NCBI RefSeq assembly: GCF_016595525.1
Contig: NZ_JAENII010000001.1
Location: forward strand, 310,001-374,000
DNA: 64,000 bases
Origin: Haloferula rosea
Lineage (GTDB): Bacteria; Verrucomicrobiota; Verrucomicrobiia; Verrucomicrobiales; Akkermansiaceae
Reading direction: 5' to 3'
How positions within the stretch are numbered: the stretch's first letter is position 1; the number at the start of each line of letters is the position of its first letter. A program made the translations under genes and the position numbers. This document shows, in pieces, positions 5,742 through 21,811 of this stretch. The notes beneath the pieces are model-generated. The model was not told where the DNA came from, did no database searches, and was given only the letters and a program-made list of their open reading frames with translations.

Positions 5742-8700
5742 CTACGGGCGACTTGCAACGACGCGGACGAGGCAACGGGTGAGATTGCCAATGACTCCAT
5801 CAACCCCATCCATGACCGATTTATCGAGGACTTCGTTGAGGATGCTGCCGCTGCCCTGATGTTCGGAGTACAGATGCCATGTTGATAGGTCGCTGGTCCA
5901 GTAGACCTCATACTGTCTGTTCTCAAGACTTGGCCAGGAGATGCTGAAACCAGTGGGAGTGTCTGCGGTTTCAAGGACTTTGAAGGTCGAGGCAGCGAGG
6001 TTGGGGTCGGTGCCGGCGATGAATTCATCGAGGTTGCTCTGTCCGTCGCCATCGGCGTCCTGATTTGCGTCTTTTGGACTGTCAGGGTCCAGCTCGTGGA
6101 CGAGTTCGAAGGAGTTCGGCATGCCATCCGCATCATTGTCGGGGCGTCGGGGGAAAAGCGTGGAGGTTGTTGTTGTGCGGTAGTTGTCGAGCACCGCGAG
6201 GAGATCGCTGCCGGTCAGGGAGGCGAGATTGCTGCGTATCTGGGAGGTGTCTGTTAGTTCAGAGATCAGGTTGTTGTCCTCTCCGAGGTCGACTGACTGC
6301 CGGAAGAGCTGTTTCGGTACCCCTTGGTCGGTGCCCAAGGGGTTGGAGATTGACGCGTTGGATGAGTCCCAGGAGACGGAGTTTCCTCCGCCACCGGTGG
6401 AGTCGATCAGTTTCCATCCGTCGATGGTCTTGAGTGCCAGGTCTCCGCGGTTTCCGGAGACGACGATCGAGTCTCGGTGGGGTGAGGGTTTCTGCTGCCC
6501 TCGGAGGACGTTCAGGAAACTTTCTCCATCGGGTGCGACATCATCGGGAAGCTCTTGGCCAAGGAAGGCAGCGACGGTGGCGAATACATCCCCCTGCCAG
6601 ATGAGTTCATTTGTTTTCATTCCGGCGGCGGCCTGGCCAGGCCAGCGCACGATGAAGGGGACGCGGATTCCGCCGTCCCAGACGTCGCGCTTGTTGCCGC
6701 GTAGGGGGCCGTTCGGGTCCTTTCCACGGGAGAGGCTTTGCGACATTGCGATGTCTTCTGGGCCGTTGTCCGAGCTGAGAATGACGAGGGTGTTGTCGTG
6801 GAAACCGTTGTTGTCGATTGCGTCGATCACACGGCCAATGCGGTGGTCGACCTCGCGCATCCAGTCCGCGTAGTAGAATCCGTTGGCGCTGTCCGAGCCG
6901 ATGAAGGGGTCGGTGAGAGCCCAGGGAAGGTGAGGACAGTAGAGGGATACGTAGGCGAAGAACGGATCAGGATCGCCAACGCGATCCGCCATGTAATCCT
7001 CGACCTGAGTGATCATGAAGGGGCCAGCATCGACCTGGCGGTAGGAAGGGTCGCCCAAACCACTACTCGATCCCTTGCCTCCGACGACCGTGGAGTTCAA
7101 TTCCGATGTGGTGAAGAAGTGCATGGTGTCGCTGTTCGTTGCGTCCCGGAAGGCTCCTGATCCGCCGTTGAGAGATGCATCCCAGATCTGACTCCGGTCA
7201 TCCTTGAGGTAGACGTAGGGGCCGAGGTTGATGGAGACCGAAAGGCCTCGGAAAAGGTCGAATCCGTGGGCGGTCGCGTGGTTCTCCACAGGACGCGCCC
7301 AATCGACAGCTGACGAATTGCTGGGGTTGCCGGTGATGCGGGTGTCCGAACCCGGGGCGAACCAGGAACCGCCGAGGTGCCATTTGCCAAAGGCTGCGGT
7401 GTCGTAGCCCTGCGTCTTGAGGAACTCGGCGATGGTGGTGTCGCTCAGGAGAGGGACTTCGTCCATTCCGGGGTTGGTCTGGTAGCCGTAGCGATGTGAG
7501 AAACCGTTGAAGAGCCGCCAGTTGTATTTTCCTGTTAGAAGGGCGTATCGGCTGGCGGTGCAGACGCCGTTGCTTGAGTGAGCTTGGGTGAAGAGAACCC
7601 CTTGGTCGGCGAGCCCGTCCATTCGCGGAGTGACGGCGGGACTGGAGATTCCGAACAGGTCTCCGTAGGCGGACATGTCGCCAAAACCGAGATCATCGGC
7701 GTAGATGATGACGATATTGGGTTTGCTGGGATTGGGGGAGTGGTCCGGACAGGAATCCGGGTCGTCGGGGCCACTGCCGAAGGAAATCTCAGCACCGTCA
7801 CTGTAGAGGTCGCCATCGCTGTCGATGAAGGTGAAAACAGGCCCGTTCGCGGGCGGCAATGCATTCGGATCCGAACTGCTGATGACTTCACTCAGGTCGT
7901 TCACTCCGTCGCCGTCTGAGTCTGCAGCATTAGGGTTGGTAGGATCCCCAGGTGCCGAGCCCGGCTGGCCAGAAGTCCATGGATTGAGAGCACCTGTCAG
8001 CTCATCCATGTCCATGATGCCGTCGTTGTCACTGTCGGCCCTACCCGACAGAGTTTGTCCGAAGCCCGAGGGACTGCTGGTTGAGTCATTTCCTTCAAAC
8101 TCCTGAAGGTTCGTCAGTCCGTCGAGATCACGGTCCAGCATGGCATCATCGAACTCAGGATCCGTGCCGTTGGCGGACTCGTATTCGTCGCTCATACCGT
8201 CTCCGTCGGTGTCTGTGGTAGGAGAGGGGACGACGGTGAACTCCAGGAGGTTGATGGCCCCCCCGCCGGATCCGGTGGGGGTGCTGATGACCATCGCGAT
8301 GTTCCCTTGGTCGTTCGCAACCAAGCCCGTGGCTTTCGGGGCGTGGGTTGCGTTGTCCAAGGTGTTGGCGATATTGAGGGGGGTGTTGCCGTTGCGATCG
8401 GTGATCACATAGTTGCAGGAGGTGCCATTGTTTCCGCGGGCCCCGTAGACCATCAGGTCGTAGGTGGCTCCTCCGGTAAGCCCTTCAAAGGTCATGCTGA
8501 TCGAGCCGGTTGCATTGGTGAAGAAGGAGTCGGAGATGGCGCTGTCGGGAAAGGTGCTGATGGGGTCAGGGTAGCCACCTTCATAGTCGGCACCGCTGCC
8601 GGCAGCCGATGCTGAAGCGACGTAGCTCAGGTTCAGGGCGATGCCTGTCGAATCGCCGTTGAGATCGATCAGATCATCGATCCGTGCCGTGTTAGAACTG

Positions 8701-10616
8701 AGGTTTCCCACTTCGGCAGTGACGTTATTCCAGCCTGGGGCTGTGGTGGGTTGGCCGGCGTCGATCCGTCCGAAATCAATGCGGATGGTGTGGGGAGTGG
8801 CACCTTCATCGACGGGCACCACGTCGAATCCCAGCCGATTTGAAGCGGCGTTCGGATTACCGTCGGCATCAATGGCGGCTGCTTCGGGCAGGTGAACACT
8901 GAGAGCGCCCTCGGTGGTGCGGGTCACGGTGACGGTCCACTGGGTTCCGCTGCCGCTGAGGTTGGAGGCACTGCCATTGGTGATGGCAAATTCATTGGCG
9001 TGAAGATGCTCAACGGGTTCGTTGAATGTGGCGGTGACCTCGAATGGTCCGGGTCCCTCGGTCCCCGGGCAGGAAAGGATCACTTTGGGTCGAGAGGAAT
9101 GGATGAAGGGCATGTCGGTGTCGACCGAGGTGCGCCAAGCATCGTACTCGTCGAGCATCTCCTGGTAGACCTGCTGGATGGCTGCTGACTTGGTGCCGAT
9201 GTCGGACTCGGTAGCGAGTGGTGTTTCCTCGGGTTCCTCACCCGTGGGAGTGTTGATGAGGTCGTAGAGTTCCCAACCGCTTCCCTTGTTGATCAACTTG
9301 TAGCGATCGTTGACCCATGAGCGGTCATCGTTGATGAGGAAACCAATAGGGCTGGTTCGTTCGGTGGCGGTGCCCTCGATCAATGGACGAAGCGAGATGC
9401 CGTCGATCGGCTTCTGGTCGGGCACGGCAAGTTGAAGGAAGTCGAGAATTGTCGGGTAGTAGTCGGATGTCACCGCTGGGAACTCCGTGACCCGTGCGGC
9501 CGGGACGCCATCGGGCCATTCGAGGATGCCCGGTACCCGAACACCTCCTTCGTGGAGGCTTCGCTTTCGTGCAAGGTATCGGCCGGACCGGATCGAGCGC
9601 AGCGTGCTTGTTTCGTTGAAGGAATTGCTGCCATCTTCCGGGCCATTATCACTGGTGAGCCAGAACATGGTATTGTCCTGAATCATGCGCGTGGCGAGTT
9701 CGTTGCGCAGGCGCCCGAGGGCGGTGTCCATGTCCTCGATGGAATCGCGAAGTGCATCACTCGAGTCCAGTCCGCTGGACTGCCCGGGGTCGGTGACGGG
9801 CTTGTGAGGAGTATGGAACCAGAGAACGAGAAAGAAGGGTTTGCCTGCCCCATTGGCCTCTTCGATGAATTCGATGGCTTGGTCGACGATGAGCTTTGAG
9901 CTGTCGCCATCCGTCGGGTTGTTGACGTCCTCCACTGGAACGATCAGGCCTTCGCCGCTCAGAGTGTTCCAAGTCGAAGGCATACGCCAGAAGTAGGTGC
10001 CGTAGAAATTGGGGTCTGTGAAGCTCGTGGGGAGCGGCAGGTTGTTGTTGGTGTTCCGGTAGGGATGATAGGTTGGCACCTTGGACTCGGTGGCGAAGCA
10101 GGTGTCGTAGCCGTGGTGCCAGGGTGCGGAATAGACACTGGCATCGCCACCCCGGTTCGAGTCGGCTCTCAGGGTGGTCATGGAGCCGAGGTGCCACTTC
10201 CCGAAGTGGCCGCAATGGTAGCCGGCTGCGGAGAGGACTTCCGAGAGCGGGGTTTCGTCGAACCCGAGTCGACCCAGATTGGCAAACGGGATGCCGACTC
10301 GGAATGGGTTCCGCCCCGTCAGGCAGCTGGCCCGTGTCGGTGAACATACGGCGGATGCCGAGTAGAACCGATCGAAGCGCAGTCCGTTGGCGGCCATGGC
10401 ATCCATTGTCGGAGTGCTGATCCATCCTTGGTCCGGATGGGGTGATCCGTCCGGGAAAGTGACACCATTGCTGTAGCAGGACGGGTCGCCCCAGCCCATG
10501 TCATCTGCCATGGCAAGAATGATGTTCGGCCGTGGCGGGGAAGAGGCGAAGGTCCAAGAGGTGATCGGCAGAAGGCACGCGAGGGCAACCTTGAGGGTAG
10601 ATCGATTTTTCATCAT
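5742..10616 (-). CDS. Secreted protein with two sulfatase domains and calcium repeats
   Basis: A 1624-residue exported protein with two complete formylglycine-type sulfatase domains. Numbering from ATG 10616: signal peptide 1-25; sulfatase 1 about 28-505 with PNIILAMADDMGWGD and CSPTR (Cys91); an Ig-like segment about 511-600; a domain of about 190 residues (608-797) shared with the next two upstream proteins; Asp-rich thrombospondin-type-3 repeats about 800-960; sulfatase 2 from about 965 with KPNIVIIYADDLGFGD and CTASR (Cys1019); more Asp-rich repeats and a small C-terminal domain. The frame runs to ATG 10661, but 10616 or 10613 gives a signal peptide. Substrate is probably a sulfated polysaccharide; specificity cannot be read from sequence. 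No sulfatase-maturing enzyme is in the window. Confidence 0.88.
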   Translation of the reverse strand: MMKNRSTLKVALACLLPITSWTFASSPPRPNIILAMADDMGWGDPSCYSNGVTFPDGSPHPDQGWISTPTMDAMAANGLRFDRFYSASAVCSPTRASCLTGRNPFRVGIPFANLGRLGFDETPLSEVLSAAGYHCGHFGKWHLGSMTTLRADSNRGGDASVYSAPWHHGYDTCFATESKVPTYHPYRNTNNNLPLPTSFTDPNFYGTYFWRMPSTWNTLSGEGLIVPVEDVNNPTDGDSSKLIVDQAIEFIEEANGAGKPFFLVLWFHTPHKPVTDPGQSSGLDSSDALRDSIEDMDTALGRLRNELATRMIQDNTMFWLTSDNGPEDGSNSFNETSTLRSIRSGRYLARKRSLHEGGVRVPGILEWPDGVPAARVTEFPAVTSDYYPTILDFLQLAVPDQKPIDGISLRPLIEGTATERTSPIGFLINDDRSWVNDRYKLINKGSGWELYDLINTPTGEEPEETPLATESDIGTKSAAIQQVYQEMLDEYDAWRTSVDTDMPFIHSSRPKVILSCPGTEGPGPFEVTATFNEPVEHLHANEFAITNGSASNLSGSGTQWTVTVTRTTEGALSVHLPEAAAIDADGNPNAASNRLGFDVVPVDEGATPHTIRIDFGRIDAGQPTTAPGWNNVTAEVGNLSSNTARIDDLIDLNGDSTGIALNLSYVASASAAGSGADYEGGYPDPISTFPDSAISDSFFTNATGSISMTFEGLTGGATYDLMVYGARGNNGTSCNYVITDRNGNTPLNIANTLDNATHAPKATGLVANDQGNIAMVISTPTGSGGGAINLLEFTVVPSPTTDTDGDGMSDEYESANGTDPEFDDAMLDRDLDGLTNLQEFEGNDSTSSPSGFGQTLSGRADSDNDGIMDMDELTGALNPWTSGQPGSAPGDPTNPNAADSDGDGVNDLSEVISSSDPNALPPANGPVFTFIDSDGDLYSDGAEISFGSGPDDPDSCPDHSPNPSKPNIVIIYADDLGFGDMSAYGDLFGISSPAVTPRMDGLADQGVLFTQAHSSNGVCTASRYALLTGKYNWRLFNGFSHRYGYQTNPGMDEVPLLSDTTIAEFLKTQGYDTAAFGKWHLGGSWFAPGSDTRITGNPSNSSAVDWARPVENHATAHGFDLFRGLSVSINLGPYVYLKDDRSQIWDASLNGGSGAFRDATNSDTMHFFTTSELNSTVVGGKGSSSGLGDPSYRQVDAGPFMITQVEDYMADRVGDPDPFFAYVSLYCPHLPWALTDPFIGSDSANGFYYADWMREVDHRIGRVIDAIDNNGFHDNTLVILSSDNGPEDIAMSQSLSRGKDPNGPLRGNKRDVWDGGIRVPFIVRWPGQAAAGMKTNELIWQGDVFATVAAFLGQELPDDVAPDGESFLNVLRGQQKPSPHRDSIVVSGNRGDLALKTIDGWKLIDSTGGGGNSVSWDSSNASISNPLGTDQGVPKQLFRQSVDLGEDNNLISELTDTSQIRSNLASLTGSDLLAVLDNYRTTTTSTLFPRRPDNDADGMPNSFELVHELDPDSPKDANQDADGDGQSNLDEFIAGTDPNLAASTFKVLETADTPTGFSISWPSLENRQYEVYWTSDLSTWHLYSEHQGSGSILNEVLDKSVMDGVDGVIGNLTRCLVRVVASRP

Positions 10617-10633
10617 GGGTTGGGGAAAGGACA

Positions 10634-10658
10634 GCCCCGCCTCACAAGGAGGTGGGGC
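10634..10658 (-). terminator. GC-rich hairpin downstream of the calcium-repeat gene
   Basis: GCCCCGCCTC at 10634-10643 pairs with GAGGTGGGGC at 10649-10658 (one G-U pair) around a 5-base loop. On the minus strand it follows the stop of the 10680-12947 gene by about 20 bases and is followed by a short pyrimidine stretch. It may act as a partial terminator that lowers expression of the downstream sulfatase, or as a processing stem. Its position also argues against the 10661 start for the sulfatase. Confidence 0.5.
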
Positions 10659-10679
10659 CATGAGATTGGGTTGTTTGGT

Positions 10680-12947
10680 TTAGGGTGTGACCAGAACCTC
10701 TTCCAAACGGTAGAACCCTTGCTCAGTGGGAGGACTGCTGTCCTCAAAGATATCAGAAGTGCCCGCAGGGAGTCTCGGCCCATCTACAATGGTTGGGAAT
10801 CCATCTGCGAGGTTCTCGGAGCGGACCAGTTGATACTGGGTGCCCGTGTCCAAACCCGTCGCCTGAATTTGGAAGGCTCCGGCATCGAAGCCGAGCACCG
10901 AGATGGTGAAACCTGCGGGAGCCTCTGCTTCGCGAACCTGAATGAAGGGAATCTGAGTTCCTGAGTAGGTGCCGTCCGACAGGTTGTGGCCGTGGCTGAA
11001 GCCTTGGACGGTGGAGGTGGCGGTGAACGTCCCGGTCATCAGGATGGTGGGATTCGTGCTCCCTCCATAGATCGTGTTGGTCGGGCCGACCGGGTCTACA
11101 GCGGTGTCACCTCCCAAATCATCGATGAAGAACCAGCGACCGGGGATGGTTCCGGCGTCGCGGTCGTCGGCGCGTGCCATCTGCACCACGTAGGTCTTTC
11201 CCGGGGTCAGGCCGGTGATGGCGATGTTGTTCTTCAGAGGGTCGCCTCCGTTGAACCACACGGTTTCGAGTAAGCCGGACAGCTCGGGGACCGCATCGTT
11301 GTAGATCGAGCTGTCGTTGGCTTGGGATGCCATGGTGGTCTGGACTTCAGGCGAGGCCTTCACCGATCCGGCCACCGTCATCTCCGCGAAGGTCACTCCG
11401 TTTACGACCGTTTCGCTCCCATTGAAGTTCTGGGCGTAGAGAGATGTTCCGGTGTTGATGATTTGAGCTGTGCTGGTCAGCGCGTCGAGTTCCCATGAGA
11501 CCGGGGCGAAGGCGGGGAGCGAGAGCTCATCATCGGGATCCAAGCCCGCCAGCACTTCGATGTTGTCCCGGTGGCCGTCGGAGTCGGTGTCGATAAGCAA
11601 CGGATCGGTTAGGTGGACCAGCACTTCATCCCCATCTTCAAGGAAATCGCCATCGGAGTCGGGGAGCAATGGGTTGCTTATGTATACGTTGACTTCGTCA
11701 CCATCGAGGAGGTCATCATCATCCGAGTCCGGGTCCTGGGGATGAGTGCCGATCGACAGCTCGGCACTGTTGACCAGGTTATCCATGTCCGGATCTCCGC
11801 TGGCTCCATCGTCACCTGTGCCAACCGCGGGATCGAGCCCGTTGGCCACCTCGTAGGCGTCGGGCAAATCATCGAGGTCACTGTCGCCGAAGTTGGGGTC
11901 AGTATTATAGGTGAGAATCTCTTCTCCATCGGTCAGGGTGTCGTCGTCACTGTCGCTGTCATGGGGATCGGTGGGAAGACCTGGTGGGCCGTCTGGAAAG
12001 CCGAACTCGTCCCATACATTGAGCGCTCCATCGACCTCATCACCATCGTTGACATTGTCGCTGTCGGAGTCTGCCGTCCCGGAGAGGGTTTGGCCGTAGC
12101 CGCTGGAAACTCCGCTGCTGTTCTGCCCGAGGAATTCTTGCAGATTCGTCAGGCCATCGGAATCGAAGTCCCCGAGTGCGCCATTCGGACCATCCTTGGC
12201 ACCGGGGGATGTTTCACCCACCGTGCCGTCGTCATTCGGATCGGTGCCGTTCTCGGTTTCGTAGCGATTCGGCATCCCGTCGTTGTCGTCGTCGGGTGGC
12301 AGCGAGCCAGTGAGGATGATGGCATTGAGGGCGCCACTGCTCTGCTGGGCGGTGTTGCTGCCTGACCCGTTCTCGCTGAAGACCCCGGTAACCACCACGG
12401 TGATTTCATTGGCGGTGTCGGGGACGAGCTCGCTGAAGGTCGCGACGTTGGTCGCGTTCTGGTAGTTGTCCACCAGTTGGACAGGCAGGGTTCCAGTCTC
12501 GTCAGTGACTGTGAACTGCGTGGCTCCTCCGTTGTTTCCCCGTGCGCCATAGCAAGCAATCTCGTAGACGAGACTGGGATCCAGTCCCGACAGCGTGAAC
12601 GTGGTGCTGGCGGGTTCACGAATGAACAGGGAGTCATCGGTGGCTGTGGCCGGGGGAGTGTCGAAGGGGGCTGGCTTGGTTCCCGAGTAGTCGGCTCCCG
12701 ACCCGGCCCATGACCCCCCGCTGCTGAAGTCCGTGTTCAGTGTGTAGGCGGTCGGATCACCTTGATCGTCGATCAGAGCGATGGACGGAGTACTCAGAAC
12801 CTGCCCATTGGGGCCGTGCACATTGTTCCAGTTGCCGGCGGTTTGATTGTCACTTCGACCGAAGTCGATCTGAACCGTCTGACCCGCGAGCGGGGCCAGC
12901 GTCATAAGCGGAGTAAGAGAAGCGAGTCGGGCGATTGATCGGATCAT
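10680..12947 (-). CDS. Large secreted protein with shared N-terminal domain and calcium repeats
   Basis: A 755-residue exported protein of unknown function. Residues 1-22 form a signal peptide ending near LAGQ. Residues about 24-215 are a domain also found in the PEP-CTERM protein upstream and in the double sulfatase downstream, with hallmarks DFGRSDNQ, GNWNNVHGP, GSGADY and YGARGNNGG. Residues about 217-475 hold many DxDxDG-type repeats of the thrombospondin-3 kind, which normally bind calcium. Residues about 490-690 look like a beta-rich domain with RADDRDAG and GFSHGHNLSDG. The C-terminal 70 residues resemble short beta-sandwich tails of verrucomicrobial exported proteins. It lacks a PEP-CTERM tail. 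It lies between the two relatives on the same strand, probably in one operon. Confidence 0.8.
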   Translation of the reverse strand: MIRSIARLASLTPLMTLAPLAGQTVQIDFGRSDNQTAGNWNNVHGPNGQVLSTPSIALIDDQGDPTAYTLNTDFSSGGSWAGSGADYSGTKPAPFDTPPATATDDSLFIREPASTTFTLSGLDPSLVYEIACYGARGNNGGATQFTVTDETGTLPVQLVDNYQNATNVATFSELVPDTANEITVVVTGVFSENGSGSNTAQQSSGALNAIILTGSLPPDDDNDGMPNRYETENGTDPNDDGTVGETSPGAKDGPNGALGDFDSDGLTNLQEFLGQNSSGVSSGYGQTLSGTADSDSDNVNDGDEVDGALNVWDEFGFPDGPPGLPTDPHDSDSDDDTLTDGEEILTYNTDPNFGDSDLDDLPDAYEVANGLDPAVGTGDDGASGDPDMDNLVNSAELSIGTHPQDPDSDDDDLLDGDEVNVYISNPLLPDSDGDFLEDGDEVLVHLTDPLLIDTDSDGHRDNIEVLAGLDPDDELSLPAFAPVSWELDALTSTAQIINTGTSLYAQNFNGSETVVNGVTFAEMTVAGSVKASPEVQTTMASQANDSSIYNDAVPELSGLLETVWFNGGDPLKNNIAITGLTPGKTYVVQMARADDRDAGTIPGRWFFIDDLGGDTAVDPVGPTNTIYGGSTNPTILMTGTFTATSTVQGFSHGHNLSDGTYSGTQIPFIQVREAEAPAGFTISVLGFDAGAFQIQATGLDTGTQYQLVRSENLADGFPTIVDGPRLPAGTSDIFEDSSPPTEQGFYRLEEVLVTP

Positions 12948-13016
12948 GAAGCGATGAGTGTTGGAATTCTGGAAGCGTCCTTGCAGGGAAGCGTCAGGAG
13001 AAGGGTGCCGTGGGTT

Positions 13017-13733
13017 TCAACGACGGCGGCGAAGAAGGGTGGTGCAAGCCAGGGCCGCCAGCATGACTGTGGACGGCTCCGGGATGTTGGAAGTGATCTG
13101 GAGGGCGTTGAAGGCTCCGCTGCTTTGCTGGTTGGTGTTGATTCCTGTGCCTGTCGAACTGAAGACACCTTGGAAAACGATGGTGATCTCACCCGAGCCA
13201 TCGGGTACCAGACCGGTGAATGATGCGACTGCCGAGTCGTTCTCAAAGACGTCGAAGGACTGGAGCGGCTTGGCACCGCTGTTGTCGGTGACGACGAATG
13301 TCGAAGCGCCGCCGTTGTTTCCCCGGGCGCCATAGAAGACGAGGTCGTAGGTCTCGCTGGCACTCAGTCCCGTCAAGGTGATGGTAGTGTCGGCAGGAGT
13401 CCGAACGAAGAGAGAGTCTCCTGTAGCTGTTGTAGGGGCTCCAGCGAAAGGAGCGGGCTTGGTTCCCGTGCTATAGTCAGCCCCAGATGCGGCCCAAGAT
13501 CCACCATCGTCGAAGTTGGTGACAAGGGTGTAGTCAGTGGCATTGCCCTGATCATCGATCAGGTCAACGGAGGGGGTGGTCAAGGTCGTAGTCCCGCTTG
13601 GCCCATGGACATTGTTCCAGTTGCCGGAGGTCTGATTGTCTGTGCGACCGAAGTCGACGAGCATGGTGGCTGCTTGGAGGTGGGCCGAAAGGCTGACGAT
13701 GGCGAGGGCGCCGGTGAGGGAGGATCGGAACAT
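13017..13733 (-). CDS. PEP-CTERM sorted surface protein
   Basis: A 238-residue exported protein with an N-terminal signal peptide (about 1-21, ending LQAA) and a classic PEP-CTERM tail: the motif PEPS, a short hydrophobic helix (TVMLAALACTTLL) and a terminal RRRR cluster. Such tails direct proteins to exosortase for cleavage and attachment to the surface. No exosortase gene is in this window. The body (about 22-215) is the stand-alone form of the shared domain, with DFGRTDNQ, GNWNNVHGP, ASGADY and YGARGNNGG. It is the first gene of a minus-strand run with 10680-12947 and 5742-10616. A GTCCC/GGGAC dyad lies about 90 bases upstream. Confidence 0.88.
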   Translation of the reverse strand: MFRSSLTGALAIVSLSAHLQAATMLVDFGRTDNQTSGNWNNVHGPSGTTTLTTPSVDLIDDQGNATDYTLVTNFDDGGSWAASGADYSTGTKPAPFAGAPTTATGDSLFVRTPADTTITLTGLSASETYDLVFYGARGNNGGASTFVVTDNSGAKPLQSFDVFENDSAVASFTGLVPDGSGEITIVFQGVFSSTGTGINTNQQSSGAFNALQITSNIPEPSTVMLAALACTTLLRRRR

Positions 13734-13823
13734 GGTGCTTCAGTGGTGTTCGTGGTTCGTGCGAGTCCGTAGGTCGAGTCATCGCGGAAAGACTACTTTG
13801 GAGTCTTCTCACATGGATTCGTC

Positions 13824-13844
13824 GGTCCCCGGAGTTTTGGGACA
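13824..13844 (-). promoter_or_regulatory. GTCCC-N9-GGGAC dyad upstream of the PEP-CTERM operon
   Basis: On the minus strand this reads TGTCCC, then AAAACTCCG, then GGGAC, followed by CGACGAA. The same arms, the same 9-base spacing and similar flanks occur at 20209-20228 ahead of the prepilin-like/sigma/kinase operon. It lies about 90 bases before the PEP-CTERM start at 13733. It could be an ECF-type promoter or a repressor site; the sequence alone does not separate these. Confidence 0.5.
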
Positions 13845-13866
13845 CTCACCAAGAAAAAATCTCGGG

Positions 13867-15933
13867 TCACCGCTGGCCGGGCGTCCGGATCAGCTTCAGT
13901 TCTCGTCGGCTCTGAATCTGCCGGAGCCACTCCTGTGGAAAATCCTGTTTCTCACTGAGTTCGATGGTTTCAAGCATCGGCAGCGAAATGGGGCGGGAGA
14001 GCCTGAGGTCCGCACAATCCTTCAAATTGAGGCGGTGGATGTCAGCCTGATCGAGAGTGGCAAGATCAAAGGGCTCGGAGAGATCCAGTCGGAGCAAGTC
14101 GGTGGGGAGGAACCTCAGGAATGATTTGCCGGAGTAGCCTTTGACCACCGGACGGCGGAGATGGACGGATTGATCCGACCAGATGAACAGAGAGCGTTCT
14201 TTCGATTGGTAGGCGGCGATGATGTGCTCAGGGCCCCCATGAAGGTATTCCAGGAAGGCAATCGCAGGCTCGGCGTTTCTGAAATCGCGTCGCGCTGCCA
14301 CATCGTAAGATAGAATCCGCTCCATCAATGGGCCGCGCCTGGGATTGATCTCCCGGGCACGGCGGAAGAAGTCTGCGAGCATTGCCGGTGAAGGGCGCAG
14401 GCCCCGGTCGTAGTTGAAGCGGGGAAATGCTTCTGCAAACTGCAGGTAATCCCCGAATCGATGTTCTGCGCTGGGCGGGCTCTTCAAGGCCGATGAGAAA
14501 TCGAGTTTGAGGCAGTTCAAGGAGAACAGTTGGAAGATCGCTTCTTGGTTCTGCGGGTCGAATGCGAGGGCAAGTTCGGTCAGTTGGGCAGATTCTTCGA
14601 TGCTGCTGACGGGGGTATCGAAAATTCCGAGGTTCTTGAGACGAATGGCGGAGGAACTCAACTGCTCTGCCAGTTCCTTGCTGGAGCGCCCCGCACGTGC
14701 AGCTTCCTCACGCAGTCGGTCCGCCATCTGACTGGCTTCTCCTTCCAAGCGCTCCGCACGCTGGGCCTGCGCCGCCGTAGCACGACGCTGGTCATTGAGG
14801 CCCTGGATGAAGAGTACGCTGATGACGCTGATTGCCACGGTGGCGATCAGCCCGACCGCCGCAGGTAGGCGGTGTCGGCGGAGAAACAGGATGGATGCCT
14901 TGTAGAAGCTGGGCTCCTCAGCTTCGGTGGCGAATCCCGCGAGGTGTTTTCGAATGTCATCCGCCATCTCAGTGGCCGAGGGGTAGCGTGCGTTCGGCTC
15001 AAGTGAGCAGGCCTTCAGGATAATGGCATCCAGGCTGTCCGGGATCATCTTCTCGGGAAACCGAAGCCGTGGCGGAGGAAAGCACCCGAGTCCCGTCTTT
15101 CTGATGATTTCCTCCTGGGTGGTTCCCGTGATGGGAGGAAGGCCCGTGAGAATGCAGTGAAGGAGGCAACCCAACGCGAACACATCGGTCCGCTGGTCCT
15201 TGGCGGCCCCCGGGCGCAGTTGCTCCGGCGCCATGAAACCCGGTGTGCCCTTGACCTCGCCGTGGATGGTCATGTTTCCGATCGACTCTGTTTGGCCCGG
15301 AAACGGGAGTTCGTCTTCATCGGTTCCGCTATCGGACATCGTCTTGGCGAGGCCCCAATCGCAGACAAGCACCTCGCCGAATCGCTCGGCCTGAATGTTC
15401 TCGGGTTTCAGGTCGAGATGGAGAATGCCCTCGGTGTGGGCGTAGGCGATGGCGTCGCAAACCTTCAGGAACGCATCGATGAGGCGCGGGCGTTCCTCCA
15501 TTCCATGCATCCTTATCAGATCAGCGAGGGTGGACTTGCCCTTCAGATCCATCGTGAAGTAGGGCCGTTTGTCTTCATCGACGCCGACATCGTAGACCTT
15601 GATGATATTCGGATGGCTGAGGGACGATGTGATCCATGCCTCGTTGACGAAAAGGTCGTAGAACTCCGGCCCGCGGTCTTCGCGAAGACGGGCAAAGGCG
15701 ACGCGCCGTCGGGTGCTCGCATCCCAGACGCTCGAAACTTCCTTCAGCGAGCCAAGCCCGAGTGGTGATTCATCGTGGTAGCGTTGCCCTGACTGCGCCT
15801 CGGACAACGTGACAAAGGATGGGCAGAGGGCTTCGAGTCCGTTGTCATCGAGTTCGTTGGCTTCGAAGTAGGCATCCGCGAGGCGGTGGTCTACGGTGAA
15901 GGTCTGGAATTCCCGGTCCTCTGGGGCACTCAT
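13867..15933 (-). CDS. Membrane-anchored Ser/Thr protein kinase, atypical ATP site
   Basis: A 688-residue kinase of the Hanks type. The kinase domain spans about 58-335. HLDLKPEN (172-179), DWG (192-194, for DFG) and APE (235-237, in GTPGFMAPEQ) are present. The strand that normally carries the catalytic lysine (VAxK) reads VAFAR at 78-82, so lysine is replaced by alanine with an arginine next to it, and the glycine loop (GLGSLKEV, 59-66) is degenerate. A single hydrophobic helix lies at about 357-377, followed by a coiled coil (about 381-430) and an unassigned, probably periplasmic, C-terminal region. Its ATG overlaps the stop of the sigma factor gene (ATGA), so it is probably its regulator. 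Confidence 0.85.
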   Translation of the reverse strand: MSAPEDREFQTFTVDHRLADAYFEANELDDNGLEALCPSFVTLSEAQSGQRYHDESPLGLGSLKEVSSVWDASTRRRVAFARLREDRGPEFYDLFVNEAWITSSLSHPNIIKVYDVGVDEDKRPYFTMDLKGKSTLADLIRMHGMEERPRLIDAFLKVCDAIAYAHTEGILHLDLKPENIQAERFGEVLVCDWGLAKTMSDSGTDEDELPFPGQTESIGNMTIHGEVKGTPGFMAPEQLRPGAAKDQRTDVFALGCLLHCILTGLPPITGTTQEEIIRKTGLGCFPPPRLRFPEKMIPDSLDAIILKACSLEPNARYPSATEMADDIRKHLAGFATEAEEPSFYKASILFLRRHRLPAAVGLIATVAISVISVLFIQGLNDQRRATAAQAQRAERLEGEASQMADRLREEAARAGRSSKELAEQLSSSAIRLKNLGIFDTPVSSIEESAQLTELALAFDPQNQEAIFQLFSLNCLKLDFSSALKSPPSAEHRFGDYLQFAEAFPRFNYDRGLRPSPAMLADFFRRAREINPRRGPLMERILSYDVAARRDFRNAEPAIAFLEYLHGGPEHIIAAYQSKERSLFIWSDQSVHLRRPVVKGYSGKSFLRFLPTDLLRLDLSEPFDLATLDQADIHRLNLKDCADLRLSRPISLPMLETIELSEKQDFPQEWLRQIQSRRELKLIRTPGQR

Positions 15934-16523
15934 GGCTCCATTCTTGCAGTCAGGGCACGGATTTCGAGGTAGAGGCGTTTCTTGACCCTTTTCCGGAGGG
16001 TGTAGACGGAGGCCACGGTAAGCCCGGTCTTGTCGGCAATTCGTTCAGTGCTCATCCCGTCGAGGCTCATCTGAAAAATCTCCACGGCATTGCCGCGAAA
16101 AGTCTGGCGAACCCGCTCCATGGCCATTCCCGAGATGTAGGCAGCCCATTCGTGTTCGATGAGGCGGTCGAGGGCACTTTCACCGCATGTGGGATCTTCA
16201 AAGAGCTCCGGGCGACCCGAGGTTTCGAATCGGTTCTTGTAGCGGTTGAGTTTTCGATGGTGTGAGAACGCCGTGTTCCGGATGATCGTGCTCAGCCAAG
16301 TCCGGAACTTCGCTCGCTTGCGGTCATAGTTGGGCAGGCTTTGAGTGAGGGTGAAGAGGACTTGTTGACTGAGGTCATCGATGTCCGCTCGGTCAATATT
16401 GAGCTGATGAAGAATGTGAAAAATGAAGCGGTGGTAGGTTTCCACCAATTCTTCCCACGCGCCGTCACTTCCAGTGTCGACAGCACGCTCCAAGAGGGTG
16501 TAGCGGGTGCCATTGGTGACCAT
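15930..16523 (-). CDS. ECF-family sigma-70 factor
   Basis: A 197-residue RNA polymerase sigma factor. Region 2 includes ELVETYHRFIFHILHQLN and the DIDDLSQQVLFTL core; region 4 has the helix-turn-helix MSTERIADKTGLTVASVYTL followed by RKRVKKRLYLE. The frame extends upstream to ATG 16673, which overlaps the stop of the prepilin-like gene (ATGA). The extra 50 residues are Arg/Pro-rich and unlike sigma factors, so ATG 16523 is preferred, though 16673 cannot be excluded. The downstream gene is a Ser/Thr kinase; sigma/kinase pairs are known in which phosphorylation controls the sigma factor. Target promoters are unproven. Confidence 0.85.
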   Translation of the reverse strand: MVTNGTRYTLLERAVDTGSDGAWEELVETYHRFIFHILHQLNIDRADIDDLSQQVLFTLTQSLPNYDRKRAKFRTWLSTIIRNTAFSHHRKLNRYKNRFETSGRPELFEDPTCGESALDRLIEHEWAAYISGMAMERVRQTFRGNAVEIFQMSLDGMSTERIADKTGLTVASVYTLRKRVKKRLYLEIRALTARMEP

Positions 16524-16557
16524 TCTGCCCAGAATGCAGATTTCGTGCCGTACGGCA
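16521..16557. promoter_or_regulatory. Two dyads at the sigma factor start
   Basis: CATTCTG-CC-CAGAATG at 16521-16536 is a perfect 7-base inverted repeat covering the preferred start codon. Ten bases further is the 12-base palindrome TGCCGTACGGCA at 16546-16557. If translation begins at 16523, these lie in a leader inside the operon and could be protein-binding sites or an RNA hairpin limiting translation. If 16673 is the true start they are coding sequence and may be chance. Confidence 0.3.
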
Positions 16558-16669
16558 AGGCAACGCCGTCCAGGCAAGGGCCGACGACCATGGAACTCGG
16601 TGAGCACCGGGCCGGATTTTCTTCTGGGAAGGTGGTTCGAAGGGGGATGAAAGGCGACTCTGATGGATC

Positions 16670-19600
16670 TCATGTTTCCTGGGGGGACAGCCAGCGGAAG
16701 CTGAGGACTTCGAAGCGTCGGCCCAATCGAGCATTGATGTCGCTTGAGTCGAGATCCCGAGGGTGGGTGCTCGGGGCGATGGAGGAGTCCAGGTAGGCAG
16801 GTGTGCGCTGGAGGGTGGCCTCACACCAGGCGCGAGCCACATTCGTTCCTGAACCGGCTTCTCCATAAGCGCGAATGACAAAGGTGTCGGACCGCACGGT
16901 GATCAGGGGAGCAAGCGGAGTCAGCAAGTCGGCTTGATTGATTACTGCCGGAGCACCATCTCCACTGGTGCCGATACTCGCTTCCGGGAAGGCGGCACCT
17001 GGATCCGCAGCCACTGGCGTGGCACCTGCGAGCGCATCGGAATTGATGCTGGTGCGGTCAATGGCGGATTGAATGGCCCCACTGACTCCGAGTTCTCCAT
17101 TTTCCAAGCGACGGTTGACGAATTCCGAGGTCGATTGGAATGGTCCGCGGAGTCGGATCTGGCGAACCAGTTCTTCAGCAAGCTCTGAGATCTGGTAGTC
17201 GGAAAGACGCCGATGACCTTGCCATACCAGTCGCTCTTTCTGTTCAGGGTCGCTGGCGCTGTCGAGTTGATCTTCAAGCGGGGGAACGTGTCGGCTTACC
17301 AATGTGCCTGTTCCACCTGTCTTGGCGAGAAGGCCTGTGGCGGTCGCGATGCGACGAACGTCGCCCGGCTGAAGGCTTGCAAGAACGGCTTCCCATGCAG
17401 CGACGGAGGTCGAGTTCACATTGAATGCTCCGTGGATCCCCAAGTGTGCGGCGATCTCCTTGTAGCCGACTTCAGGATTTGTGATCGCGGATGCTTCGGG
17501 GGTCTTCACTCCTCGCACCTTGAAGCGCTTCATCCTTGGGTTTGGCAGGCTGGATGATCCTTGGAGAAAGTCGGTGGTGACCTGAAGGAGTGATCGTTCC
17601 GTGCCGAAGGTTTGCTGCGTCTGGCTGGACAAGCTGGAGAAGAAGTATTGGTCGAACAATCGGTGATTGGCGAGGAACGAGTGGTCGAGAAAGGTGCGGC
17701 TTCCCATCGGAGAACGCACGGCTGTGGCCGAGATCAGTGGATGGGCCAGTGAGTTGCCGACGGCCTGGGACTGCAGGGGGATCTGTCCTCCCGTGTTGAT
17801 GGGTGCGTGGCGCAGTTGTGCCATTGAAGTCAATGGAGCAAGCGGGATGCTTGAGAATGGAGCATTGGTCTGCCCGGTCTGTGCGTAGATTCCGGATGCG
17901 CCGAATCCACGGTTGCTGGGATCGATCTCAATGGTTGGAGAGCTGGTCCAATCGGTCATCGCTTCCCAGCTGAACTCGTACTGGTGGTATCTCTCAGCCT
18001 CATCCTGATCGATCCCTGCGGAGGCGTAGAGGTTGGTCGGGCTGTTGTGCAGCCAACTCCTGGAGGGTTCTCTGGAGTCCAGTGCTGTTTTCAGGTGCAT
18101 GGATGCCAGCAGGAACGGCTCCTTGTGACGGCAGTTCGGAGGAGGTGGTGACTTGCTGCTGTCCCCTTGAATGTTGGTCATTCCCCCGGGAACGGTTATC
18201 CACGGAAGATCGCGCGGGGAGTAGGAAGGTAGGAGTTGATTCTCATCGGAACCATAATCGAGTTCGATCGCGCCAACGAGAGGTGGCTCGCTACCCTGGG
18301 TCTGGCCGTCACTTTCGACGTAGTATTTCAGGTAAGAGGTGATCTCCTCGCCATTGGTTTCCCTCAGCTTGTCGATGTTCGCATTGGCGGGTGAGACGGA
18401 TAGCCCGATGGTATCCCCCGCCTTTACTGGAACCACACGGGTGGTGACGCCATTGATCCTTCCCGAGTCCCTGCCAGCGGAGTCGACGCAAAGATTGAGG
18501 CTGGAAACGCCGCCGACGTGCGGGTCGCTGGATTCACCGGCTGGAGCGTTCCAGCCCGGACGCAGGTCGACCCCTTCGAGCATGTAGCGCTGGAGGTAGT
18601 GGGGCATGTGGTTGTGGGCAGTGAACACGAGGTGTTCTCCCGGTTTCATGACGATCTTGTCCGTCGCAGTGCCGCTGGTGTCCAGGCCGGGGAGGATGTT
18701 CAGGCGATAGTATTTTTCGGCCCGTGAGTTGAAGTCACCAGGAAGGTAGGAATTGGCGAACAGGGTGGGATTCGGCGAGACGCTTTGCCCGTTGCGATAG
18801 ATCTGGAACGCAAGAGGTACCCGGTGCAGGTCGACACGGGCACGCTCGAAAGACAGGGAGACATCGTAGGGATTCCACAGGGTGATGACGGGGTCGGTGA
18901 TCAGCCATGCCACCCAATCTTCGCCATCTTTCTGGGCATCTTCAGTGCCCCCCCGCGCCTGTCTCGGAGAGGCACCGAAGCCGATGCTGAAAACGAACTG
19001 GGCCTTGGCAATTACTGGAGCGATCTGCTGCTCGTTGAAGTGGGGATGGAAGATGGTTCGGACCGCAGGCAGCCCGGCCTGTGGACGTTCATTGACCCGG
19101 GTTCCTATTGTTGGCTCGGAGTTCACATTGCGCACCTCGCGATGAAGGCGGGCATGGGAGTGGAGCAGATCCCAGCTTGGATCGGGGGTGGGTATGACAT
19201 GGGCTCCAGAGAATCGGGATGCCGGGTTGACGAGGGGGCGGTTTCCATCGGCATAGAGAAACTTCCTTTCAAACTCGCTGGGCAACGAGTCGTGCTCGAA
19301 GGCGAGGCTGAGGTCTCTGGCTAGACCGCCGTTGGCGACATCAATCGGGATGGCGGTCGAGTAAGCTGTGAGGTGGTGGAAATTCCGGATGTCAGGTTCC
19401 GCTCCGACCAAGGGGATTTGTCCGATGGAGATCAGCTTGAGCCGATCATCGCCAGCACTTTTCAGACTGCTCCAGTTGAGTCCCTCCGCGGTCACCGATC
19501 CAAATCCCGGGCTGGCAGGAGCCGTTTGCAGGGCAAGCTCATCACCCAGGGTCGAAGCCTCGACATCGGGTAGGGTCATGCAGGCTTTCTGGCCTTGATC

Positions 19601-20185
19601 GAGCACGACCCAAGCACCTTGACCCTCATCATCGGATCCGATGGGGAAGGGCTCGGCAAGGACTTGATTTGACCCGAACTCATCACCGGGCACCATCGTG
19701 ATGGCGTCTGAGGAGGGCAAGTTGAGGGCGAAGTCCGGGTCTTCGACGGCGTCATTGTCTGGGCTGGAGACCAGCCAGCCGAGGAAGTCCGACTCCTTAC
19801 GGGTGGCGTAGTCAGGCGTTTGTTGCATGTCCCACTTCCAACTCTTCCACACACCGGTGAGATGGGGACGGGCGGAGGAAGCAACTGAGGCATCAGGGTC
19901 GGCGAGAATTCCCGAACTGGCTGTAATCCTCTGGTCGGCGCCGGCAAGCTCCTGCAACCGGCCGATCGCGAGATTGAGCGAGAGGCGGGCGTTGCTACGA
20001 GCCAAGGCCGCAAGCTCTCCATTGCTGCTTGCCCGGAGCGAGACTGTCGAAAGCGAGAGCATCCCAACGGCCAGAATGGACAGGAGCACCATCAGGATGA
20101 TGGTGATCACGAGGGCGAAGCCTGATCGGACAGTGCGTTTGGTGCGCGGGGTCTTGTGGGGACGGAAGGGAATCAAGAGTAGCAT
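16670..20185 (-). CDS. Giant prepilin-like exported protein (verrucomicrobial type)
   Basis: A 1171-residue protein with a type IV pilin-like N-terminus: basic residues, then SGFALVITIILMVLLSILAV at about 21-40. The glutamate usually found five residues after the cleavage site is absent, as in PilX/GspK-type minor pseudopilins. The region after it (LARSNARLSLNLAIGRLQEL, then GADQRITASSGI) resembles the large prepilin-like proteins of Verrucomicrobia, possibly the family called Verru_Chthon cassette protein A; other cassette members are not seen here. The rest is a large domain without a fold I can name. It is the first gene of a run with the sigma factor and kinase. A GTCCC/GGGAC dyad lies 24 bases before ATG 20185. 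Confidence 0.72.
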   Translation of the reverse strand: MLLLIPFRPHKTPRTKRTVRSGFALVITIILMVLLSILAVGMLSLSTVSLRASSNGELAALARSNARLSLNLAIGRLQELAGADQRITASSGILADPDASVASSARPHLTGVWKSWKWDMQQTPDYATRKESDFLGWLVSSPDNDAVEDPDFALNLPSSDAITMVPGDEFGSNQVLAEPFPIGSDDEGQGAWVVLDQGQKACMTLPDVEASTLGDELALQTAPASPGFGSVTAEGLNWSSLKSAGDDRLKLISIGQIPLVGAEPDIRNFHHLTAYSTAIPIDVANGGLARDLSLAFEHDSLPSEFERKFLYADGNRPLVNPASRFSGAHVIPTPDPSWDLLHSHARLHREVRNVNSEPTIGTRVNERPQAGLPAVRTIFHPHFNEQQIAPVIAKAQFVFSIGFGASPRQARGGTEDAQKDGEDWVAWLITDPVITLWNPYDVSLSFERARVDLHRVPLAFQIYRNGQSVSPNPTLFANSYLPGDFNSRAEKYYRLNILPGLDTSGTATDKIVMKPGEHLVFTAHNHMPHYLQRYMLEGVDLRPGWNAPAGESSDPHVGGVSSLNLCVDSAGRDSGRINGVTTRVVPVKAGDTIGLSVSPANANIDKLRETNGEEITSYLKYYVESDGQTQGSEPPLVGAIELDYGSDENQLLPSYSPRDLPWITVPGGMTNIQGDSSKSPPPPNCRHKEPFLLASMHLKTALDSREPSRSWLHNSPTNLYASAGIDQDEAERYHQYEFSWEAMTDWTSSPTIEIDPSNRGFGASGIYAQTGQTNAPFSSIPLAPLTSMAQLRHAPINTGGQIPLQSQAVGNSLAHPLISATAVRSPMGSRTFLDHSFLANHRLFDQYFFSSLSSQTQQTFGTERSLLQVTTDFLQGSSSLPNPRMKRFKVRGVKTPEASAITNPEVGYKEIAAHLGIHGAFNVNSTSVAAWEAVLASLQPGDVRRIATATGLLAKTGGTGTLVSRHVPPLEDQLDSASDPEQKERLVWQGHRRLSDYQISELAEELVRQIRLRGPFQSTSEFVNRRLENGELGVSGAIQSAIDRTSINSDALAGATPVAADPGAAFPEASIGTSGDGAPAVINQADLLTPLAPLITVRSDTFVIRAYGEAGSGTNVARAWCEATLQRTPAYLDSSIAPSTHPRDLDSSDINARLGRRFEVLSFRWLSPQET

Positions 20186-20208
20186 TCGTTACCCTGATGT
20201 CTTCGATC

Positions 20209-20228
20209 GTCCCGGGCGTCTTGGGACA
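20209..20228 (-). promoter_or_regulatory. GTCCC-N9-GGGAC dyad upstream of the prepilin/sigma/kinase run
   Basis: On the minus strand: TGTCCC, AAGACGCCC, GGGAC, then GATCGAAG. It matches the dyad at 13824-13844 in both arms, in spacing (9 bases) and in part of the spacer and downstream flank. It is 24 bases before the start codon, so if it is a promoter the leader is very short. Shared use by the sigma factor's own operon and the PEP-CTERM operon would fit autoregulation, but this is inference. Confidence 0.5.
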
Positions 20229-20323
20229 GATGAGTGGGGAAAAGTTCTGAATTTGTGCCTCTGTCATCTTCCGGAGTATGCTGCGGGACGGCTCGGGAGA
20301 ACCTTGTTGTCGTCCGAGAAGAC

Positions 20324-21811
20324 CTATTTGAGTCGTGGAGCGGTGTGCCCACGCTTCTGGTCTTCTGAGAGGGCCTTTTGCATGGCGGCGACCCGTTCGG
20401 GGTGTTTGGTGGCGAGGTTGTTCTTTTGCCCGATGTCCTCGGCGAGGTTGTAGAGTTCGACCGCAGAGCCGTCGTCCTTGGGCTGGTTGTGTTTCTCATT
20501 CCACTCCTTCGGTGCCTGGCGGAGGTAGCCGGTTTTGGCGTCGATGAGGAGCCAATCACCGTCGCGGTAGGCGTAGTGGTCTTTCTTGGTGTTGTGCACC
20601 ATGGAGTCCCGTGGGCCTGTCTCGGAGTTGCCTCTCAAGTAGGGCAGGAAGTCGTGGGAGTCATGGGCGGAGTCATCCGGCAATTCGAAGCCGACGGCGG
20701 CGGCAAGGGTGGCCATGAAATCAACTTGTGAGATCAATTCGGGCGAGACGGAGCCGGGTTTCGTCAGTCCGGGCCAACGGATGAGGAAGGGGACATGGTG
20801 CCCGCCTTCGTAGATGTCGCGCTTCAGGCCGCGGAGTGGAGCCGGGGACCAGTGGTCGTATTTCTGATCGCGGGCGAAGGCGTAGTATTCGGGTCCGTTG
20901 TCGGCGGTGAAGATGACGATGGTGTTGTCGGCATGTCCTGACTCTTCAAGGGCCTTGAGAATACGGCCGCAGGAGTCGTCGGTCTGGTGAACGAAGTCGC
21001 CGTAGGGGCCGGCCTTGGAGGTGCCGTCGAATTCATCGTTCGGGATGATGGGTGCGTGGGGTGACGGGAAGGGGACGAAGAGGAAGAAGGGTTGGGTGTT
21101 GCCCTTCCTGCCCTCGACGTAGCGGACCGCTTTTTTGGTGAGAGTGGGCAGGACCTGGTAGAAATCCCAATCGTCCATGGCCGGACCGGGTCGGCACTCC
21201 CAGTTTCCTTCCTTGGTCTCCGCGGCGGGTTTCCGGAGGGTGGTATTGGGCGCGGTGACAAGCTTGTCGTCCTCGATCCATGCGTAGGGCGGGAAGTTGA
21301 TGACGGTGTCACCGAAGTAGTGATCGAAGCCGTGGTCGAGAGGGCCGCCGGGAACGGGCTTGGACCAGTCGAAGTGTTGATGGTCGATCGACTTCTTCGG
21401 GGTGCCAGGTTTGCGAATGGCGTCCCAGTCCCAGCCCAGATGCCATTTGCCGATGCAGGCGGTGGCGTAGCCCTTTTCCTGCAGCATCTGTGGAAGGGTC
21501 AGTTGGTCTTTCTTGAAGACCGACTTGCCCAACGCGTTGACGATGCCATGGAAGTCGCGCCAGTGGTGGCGCCCGGTCAGCAGTGCGTAGCGTGAGGGAG
21601 TGCAGATGCCTGAAGAGGAGTGGCCGTCGGTGAATCGCATGCCTGAGGCCGCCAACTTGTCGAGGTGGGGAGTGGGGATCTTGCTGTCCGGATTGTAGCA
21701 GCCCAGGTCGCCGTATCCGAGGTCATCGGCATAGAGGATGACAATGTTTGGTTGGGCGGCTTGAGTTGGGACCCAGAAGGCGAGCGCTACGAGAGCAGCT
21801 GGAAGTTTCAT
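20324..21811 (-). CDS. Secreted sulfatase
   Basis: A 495-residue formylglycine-dependent sulfatase. A signal peptide (about 1-19, ending TQAA) is followed by [15 protein letters not shown] with the first calcium-binding aspartates, then the CTPSR motif with Cys70, the residue normally converted to formylglycine. Other signatures are [11 protein letters not shown] (about 120) and the [11 protein letters not shown] segment. Length and architecture match arylsulfatase A-like enzymes acting on carbohydrate sulfates. It begins 57 bases downstream of the next sulfatase gene on the same strand, so the pair may be co-transcribed. The substrate is not known from sequence. Confidence 0.92.

Follow-up and report, generated by a model that had tools for sequence, protein, structure and literature searches.

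A 64,000-nt window of the Haloferula rosea genome (the whole stretch of DNA analysed, to which all coordinates refer; the own genome comprises 4.68 Mb) was found to contain the inverted repeat GTCCC-N9-GGGAC ahead of two neighbouring gene runs, one encoding a prepilin-like protein, a sigma factor and a Ser/Thr kinase and the other a PEP-CTERM surface protein, a large surface-type protein and a double sulfatase. The locus raises the question of which protein reads the two sites, and whether the repeat itself is the unit that is read. With a probability of about 0.83, judged from sequence comparison, both sites are promoters of one extracytoplasmic function (ECF) sigma factor, that of the first run, which would drive the two operons as a local autoregulated module.

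A conserved and directional two-box element

Homologous loci were collected with the sigma protein as query from the same family and from named genomes (Roseibacillus and other Akkermansiaceae, Pontiellaceae of the Kiritimatiellota, Lentisphaera and one Pirellulaceae metagenome-assembled genome), and the removal of duplicates left 68 sigma loci from bacteria of the Planctomycetota-Verrucomicrobiota-Chlamydiota (PVC) group. Every 8-mer was counted in the 350 nt past the kinase stop codon of the 25 closest loci. The top-ranked 8-mer was found to be TGTCCCAA, which was present in 14 of the 25 loci against 0.44 loci expected (binomial P about 1e-18), whereas the best 8-mer in 200 sets of random windows drawn from the same loci reached 6 at most. 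It was oriented in sense along the downstream gene in all 14 loci and in antisense in 0 of 25. The motif was found in 1 of 34 distant loci (Fisher 4e-6, close versus distant), and the 8-mer count for the distant sigma relatives (G029, Lentisphaera) gave no common 8-mer but only A/T runs.

A second box was found at a fixed distance from the first. Among 35 intergenic copies of TGTCCYAA (loci obtained solely via the sigma protein, with C or T allowed at motif position 6), 21 contained [TG][CA]AT exactly 24 nt from the motif start, and each other offset gave 0 or 1. The consensus was TGTCC[C/T]AA-N16-[T/G][C/A]AT, and the base two positions ahead of the second box was preferentially G. This fixed box at offset 24 replaced a first guess of a CGRY -10 box with variable spacing, which had given 14 matches in the own genome against 5 for the control. 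Sigma factors recognise sites of just this type, which have a direction and two boxes at a fixed distance.

Both window sites read TGTCCCAA-N16-GAA[T/G] on the minus strand, which is the strand of all genes in the neighbourhood. Predicted promoter 1 (13817-13844, minus) was found to contain the -35-like TGTCCCAA at 13837-13844, a 16-nt spacer and the -10-like GAAT at 13817-13820, upstream of the PEP-CTERM gene. Predicted promoter 2 (20201-20228, minus) was found to contain the -35-like TGTCCCAA at 20221-20228, followed by a 16-nt spacer and the -10-like GAAG at 20201-20204, and it ends 15 nt ahead of the ATG of the prepilin-like gene. The extended core TGTCCCAANNCNCCNGGGAC had exactly two perfect matches in the 4.68 Mb, namely the window sites, which are 6.4 kb apart. 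The form TGTCCCAA-N17-MAK had five matches in the own genome, and the tighter KMAK form with TGTCCCAA was present only at the two window sites; the three other matches fell inside open reading frames, one of which runs on the strand of the match and two on the opposite strand.

The sigma clade and the competing explanations

All 15 motif-bearing rows (site within about 5 kb) of a 66-row sigma tree were found inside one clade of 25 rows, and 14 of them were placed in its core (22 rows, support 96/99), in which Akkermansiaceae and Pontiellaceae were mixed. The sigma4.2 recognition helix VYTL[RK]KRVK was nearly invariant in the motif clade and varied outside it. The kinase gene was found directly downstream of the sigma gene, on the same strand, in nearly all loci, and the window, L057, L090 and L096 contained predicted promoters at both ends, one ahead of the sigma operon and one past the kinase gene. 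Four Pontiellaceae/Kiritimatiellae genomes contained 24 TCAT-type sites against 6 control matches, many of them before PEP-CTERM genes. In the sequences compared, the two-box element is conserved in direction and location, restricted to one sigma clade and nearly unique in the genome. The preliminary description had linked the prepilin/sigma/kinase operon with the PEP-CTERM/sulfatase operon through this sigma system, and that link is well supported, the connection probably being an asymmetric promoter to which the sigma factor would bind.

Several pairs per genome were also observed. L090 (Pontiellaceae B12227; 7968-18652) contained two tandem sigma-kinase pairs, with predicted TGTCCYAA promoters before the first pair, between the pairs and after the second, and the first pair shared its run with a gene for alpha-L-fucosidase. 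G029 (Akkermansiaceae SS36427bin_12, 2.7 Mb; L037-L042, L062-L074) contained at least 18 pairs, several of them beside PEP-CTERM genes and most of them without the TGTCCCAA motif; their promoters may have diverged.

The own genome was found to contain a second sigma-kinase pair on contig C69 (L055, G000:C69:139300-141000), on which both exosortases of the genome are also encoded. The two window promoters might belong to this pair, or to both pairs jointly, and not to the adjacent sigma factor alone. The C69 sigma factor is 49% identical to that of the window, belongs to the same motif clade and contains the same recognition helix, and a TGTCCCAA site precedes the divergent PEP-CTERM gene of that pair. 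This explanation is nevertheless unlikely, as the orthologous pairs in genomes such as G039 (same genus) and G011 keep sites beside the pair, and the two TCAT-type sites of G039 both flank its own pair. The -10 box of the C69 site is different (GCAC), so that some specificity is possible, and cross-talk between the window pair and the C69 pair is possible as well.

The chances are slimmer that a symmetric DNA-binding regulator, be it a repressor or an activator, uses the dyad as its operator and that the sigma factor acts at other places. As the preliminary description had it, GTCCC-N9-GGGAC is present with zero mismatches at 13825-13843 within promoter 1 and at 20209-20227 within promoter 2 (no strand). 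It is also exact at one separately found site of the same genus (L057 at 7175, upstream of the sulfatase preceding its sigma gene), and three of the four sites examined in this genus contain the GGGAC arm in the same register. Among 31 gene-proximal sites, however, the GGGAC arm was found at the dyad position only in the two window copies, with the second box being kept, and the nearest relative (L056) carries TGTCCCAAACGCGCACCGGGCGGCTCAT, in which both boxes are present and the dyad is absent. The strict direction of the element likewise argues against such an operator, and no conserved non-sigma regulator gene was found among the neighbourhoods listed. The bare dyad was counted at 5 places in the own genome and its reversed control at 6, which is chance frequency, and it was dropped as uninformative as a genome-wide motif; what the proposed genome scan did bring out is the restriction of the extended core to the two window sites. 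Since most relatives have lost the GGGAC arm but retain the left box TGTCCYAA and, 16 nt beyond it, the second box, neither symmetry nor a repressor operator is needed. The evidence supports an asymmetric two-box promoter as the putative functional unit, with the dyad symmetry being incidental. The earlier suggestion of a promoter or operator accordingly survives in its first half, through position, direction, fixed spacing, a single sigma clade and near-uniqueness, whereas its second half falls with the missing arm.

A recent local duplication that made the two sites alike, with no regulatory role, would fit their having most of 20 bases in common at 6.4 kb distance and the duplication of the PEP-CTERM N-terminal domain itself within the run, but it can practically be dismissed, and is refuted as a complete account, by the recurrence of the two-box element at corresponding places in two NCBI phyla, between which the bases of the spacer are otherwise unrelated.

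Several points weigh against the assignment of both promoters to the adjacent sigma factor. The motif TGTCCCAA was absent from the 350 nt after the kinase in 11 of the 25 close loci, some of which contained a copy elsewhere or a variant, and the window -10 boxes GAAT and GAAG are a minority form. The C69 sigma factor, being of the same clade, could use the window promoters. No promoter site was found ahead of the prepilin gene of L056, so that autoregulation is not universal, and the acidic DIDD of sigma2.2 is kept in the window sigma factor, so that the only kinase-dependent activation proven so far, that of group ECF43 (below), is not simply transferable. The boundary between close and distant loci was fixed after the pattern had first been noticed, and several loci are paralogues, so that the P values overstate independence.

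Partner kinase, target genes and proposed mechanism

The sigma gene (15930-16673, minus) encodes sigma2 and sigma4 and overlaps the kinase gene (13867-15933, minus) by ATGA, and its possible upstream ATG at 16673 coincides with the stop of the prepilin-like gene at 16670; both arrangements had been described correctly before. Alignments with homologues of the sigma factor set in only at about residue 51 (at about 16523), so that the initial 50 residues counted from the ATG at 16673 are not conserved.

The kinase (688 aa) is of the Hanks type by profile match and predicted structure, and it was predicted to contain a kinase domain at about 49-338 and a membrane helix at about 355-376, followed by a coiled coil and a TPR-like/LRR-like C-terminal region. 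The C-terminal region, folded alone (predicted local distance difference test 93), gave no significant match among solved structures and only weak TPR-like matches. The Pkinase profile gave 123.3 bits, HLDLKPEN and CDWG with the catalytic and metal-binding Asp residues were present, and the fold matched PknB (1mru) with Z 32.0 and a root-mean-square deviation of 1.9 over 261 aligned residues. Within residues 59-81, the canonical VAxK lysine of strand beta3 was absent, with VAFA at that place, and a lysine (K64) was present in the glycine-rich loop. Among the readable kinases of the family, the glycine-loop lysine was found in 63 of 63 and the beta3 lysine was replaced in all, by Ala in 61. The relocated lysine was restricted in the own genome to the two sigma-linked kinases, the other kinases with readable motifs being canonical.

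Among the first genes after the two-box sites were those for PEP-CTERM proteins, sulfatases, a GH43 enzyme, an alpha-L-fucosidase (in two cases) and surface proteins with CBM6 or Ig/PKD domains. The sigma gene itself takes this place in L096, and a gene for a prepilin-like protein does so in the window and in L099. Promoter 1 of the window is followed by the gene for the PEP-CTERM surface protein (13017-13733, minus), then by that for the large surface-type protein of 755 aa (10680-12947, minus) and, as the last gene of the run, by a single open reading frame for a 1639-aa protein in which two sulfatase domains are combined with Big_12 and TSP3 repeats (5742-10661, minus). The PEP-CTERM protein contains an IPEPS...RRRR C-terminus and scored 20.3 bits with Pfam PEP-CTERM, marginally below the cut-off of 20.7; two exosortases above the cut-off were found in the own genome, so that signal and exosortase are both present. 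The N-terminal domain of this protein was found to recur with 57% identity in the 755-aa protein (12297-12947, minus) and with 35% identity inside the 1639-aa sulfatase (8214-8822, minus). A C-terminus of the AFYR[LIV]xxxxP type is common to many predicted targets (window 10680-12947, L057, L167), which may thereby have a terminal domain or a sorting signal in common. A sulfatase was nearby in 15 of 25 close loci versus 14 of 43 distant loci, and another (20324-21811, minus) precedes site 2 in gene order; because sulfatases are so common in the own genome (117 matches), their adjacency proves little and is weak alone, and the evidence lies in the promoters. A search of 13000-21000 against Rfam gave no RNA family.

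Promoter 2 is followed by the gene for the prepilin-like protein (1171 aa; 16670-20185, minus). Its N-terminus alone resembled Verru_Chthon cassette protein A (22.6 bits, cut-off 332.3), and the GspK-like resemblance was likewise N-terminal and far below family cut-offs. The position of this gene beside the sigma gene was kept only in L056, and the link with pilin-like secretion that had been drawn from it is weak.

RNA polymerase with this sigma factor would start the prepilin-like/sigma/kinase operon, which would give positive autoregulation, and the same sigma factor would also start the operon of the PEP-CTERM protein, the surface protein and the double sulfatase. The co-encoded transmembrane kinase most likely senses an extracytoplasmic signal and would activate the sigma factor by phosphorylation, which is the mode of action that we infer for it. 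The output would be local and would consist of surface proteins anchored by exosortase and of enzymes for sulfated polysaccharides, which would tie both to a predicted kinase-sigma switch.

Comparison with known systems

Planctomycetota and Verrucomicrobiota encode many ECF sigma factors that are linked to kinases, but in the literature searched tests were found only for members of ECF43, and a promoter was found for none of the kinase-linked groups of PVC bacteria. With a predicted consensus and predicted targets, PVC regulons become searchable and can be tested with a simple reporter. The general type is already known; the novelty is a kinase-linked ECF sigma factor with a local regulon, a defined (predicted) promoter and an unusual kinase. 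More tentatively, and at somewhat below even odds, an undescribed bacterial kinase family with a WNK-like relocated lysine may be the dedicated activator of a PVC-wide ECF class, in which each pair would control its own two-box promoters together with the adjoining genes for PEP-CTERM proteins, sulfatases and glycosidases; such a module would sense polysaccharides and would differ from the known SusCD/anti-sigma systems.

Eukaryotic WNK kinases are defined by the same lysine relocation (PMC5346417), and the window kinase is like them in the absent beta3 lysine and the conserved lysine in the glycine-rich loop. It differs in that its sequence and fold are nearest to bacterial PknB, and no WNK kinship is claimed. 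A review from 2025 on families of bacterial pseudokinases names WNK only as a eukaryotic comparison (PMC12599244). The active site of this bacterial family is unusual, and an annotation based on the lysine would call its members inactive.

The window sigma factor belongs to the ECF (group 4) sigma factors, as it contains only sigma2 and sigma4 (Sigma70_r2 60.5, cut-off 24; r4_2 26.8, cut-off 25.7; TIGR02937 66.1, cut-off 42.9). It scored 55.9 bits with TIGR02989 Sig-70_gvs1, the Rhodopirellula/Verrucomicrobium family, against a curated cut-off of 124.55, and thus falls outside that family. Groups ECF59, ECF61, ECF62 and ECF217 are listed as kinase-linked planctomycete groups (PMC8999054) and are alike in being kinase-linked sigma factors of PVC bacteria; the window sigma factor may be a member or a near neighbour of one of these groups. 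No promoter or target was found for these four groups in the literature searched.

The ECF43 pairs EcfP-PknT of Vibrio and EcfK-PknS of Xanthomonas (PMC8999054, PMC13147305) are alike in that an ECF sigma gene stands beside the gene of a transmembrane Hanks-type Ser/Thr kinase, with no anti-sigma factor. In ECF43, the acidic DxxD of sigma2.2 is replaced by uncharged residues and activation follows from the phosphorylation of a Thr there (PMC8999054, PMC13147305), whereas the window sigma factor retains DIDD (in DIDDLSQQ) and the acidic pair is kept in nearly all orthologues.

The promoter of ECF41, TGTCACA-n16-CGTC, has been experimentally proven and drives a single neighbouring transcript (PMC3426412). 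The likeness lies in the TGTC-type -35 box, the equal distance from box to box and one local target operon beside the sigma gene. ECF41 differs in its large C-terminal regulatory extension, where the window sigma factor ends at sigma4, in being without a kinase partner, and in the boxes TGTCACA and CGTC in place of TGTCCYAA and TCAT.

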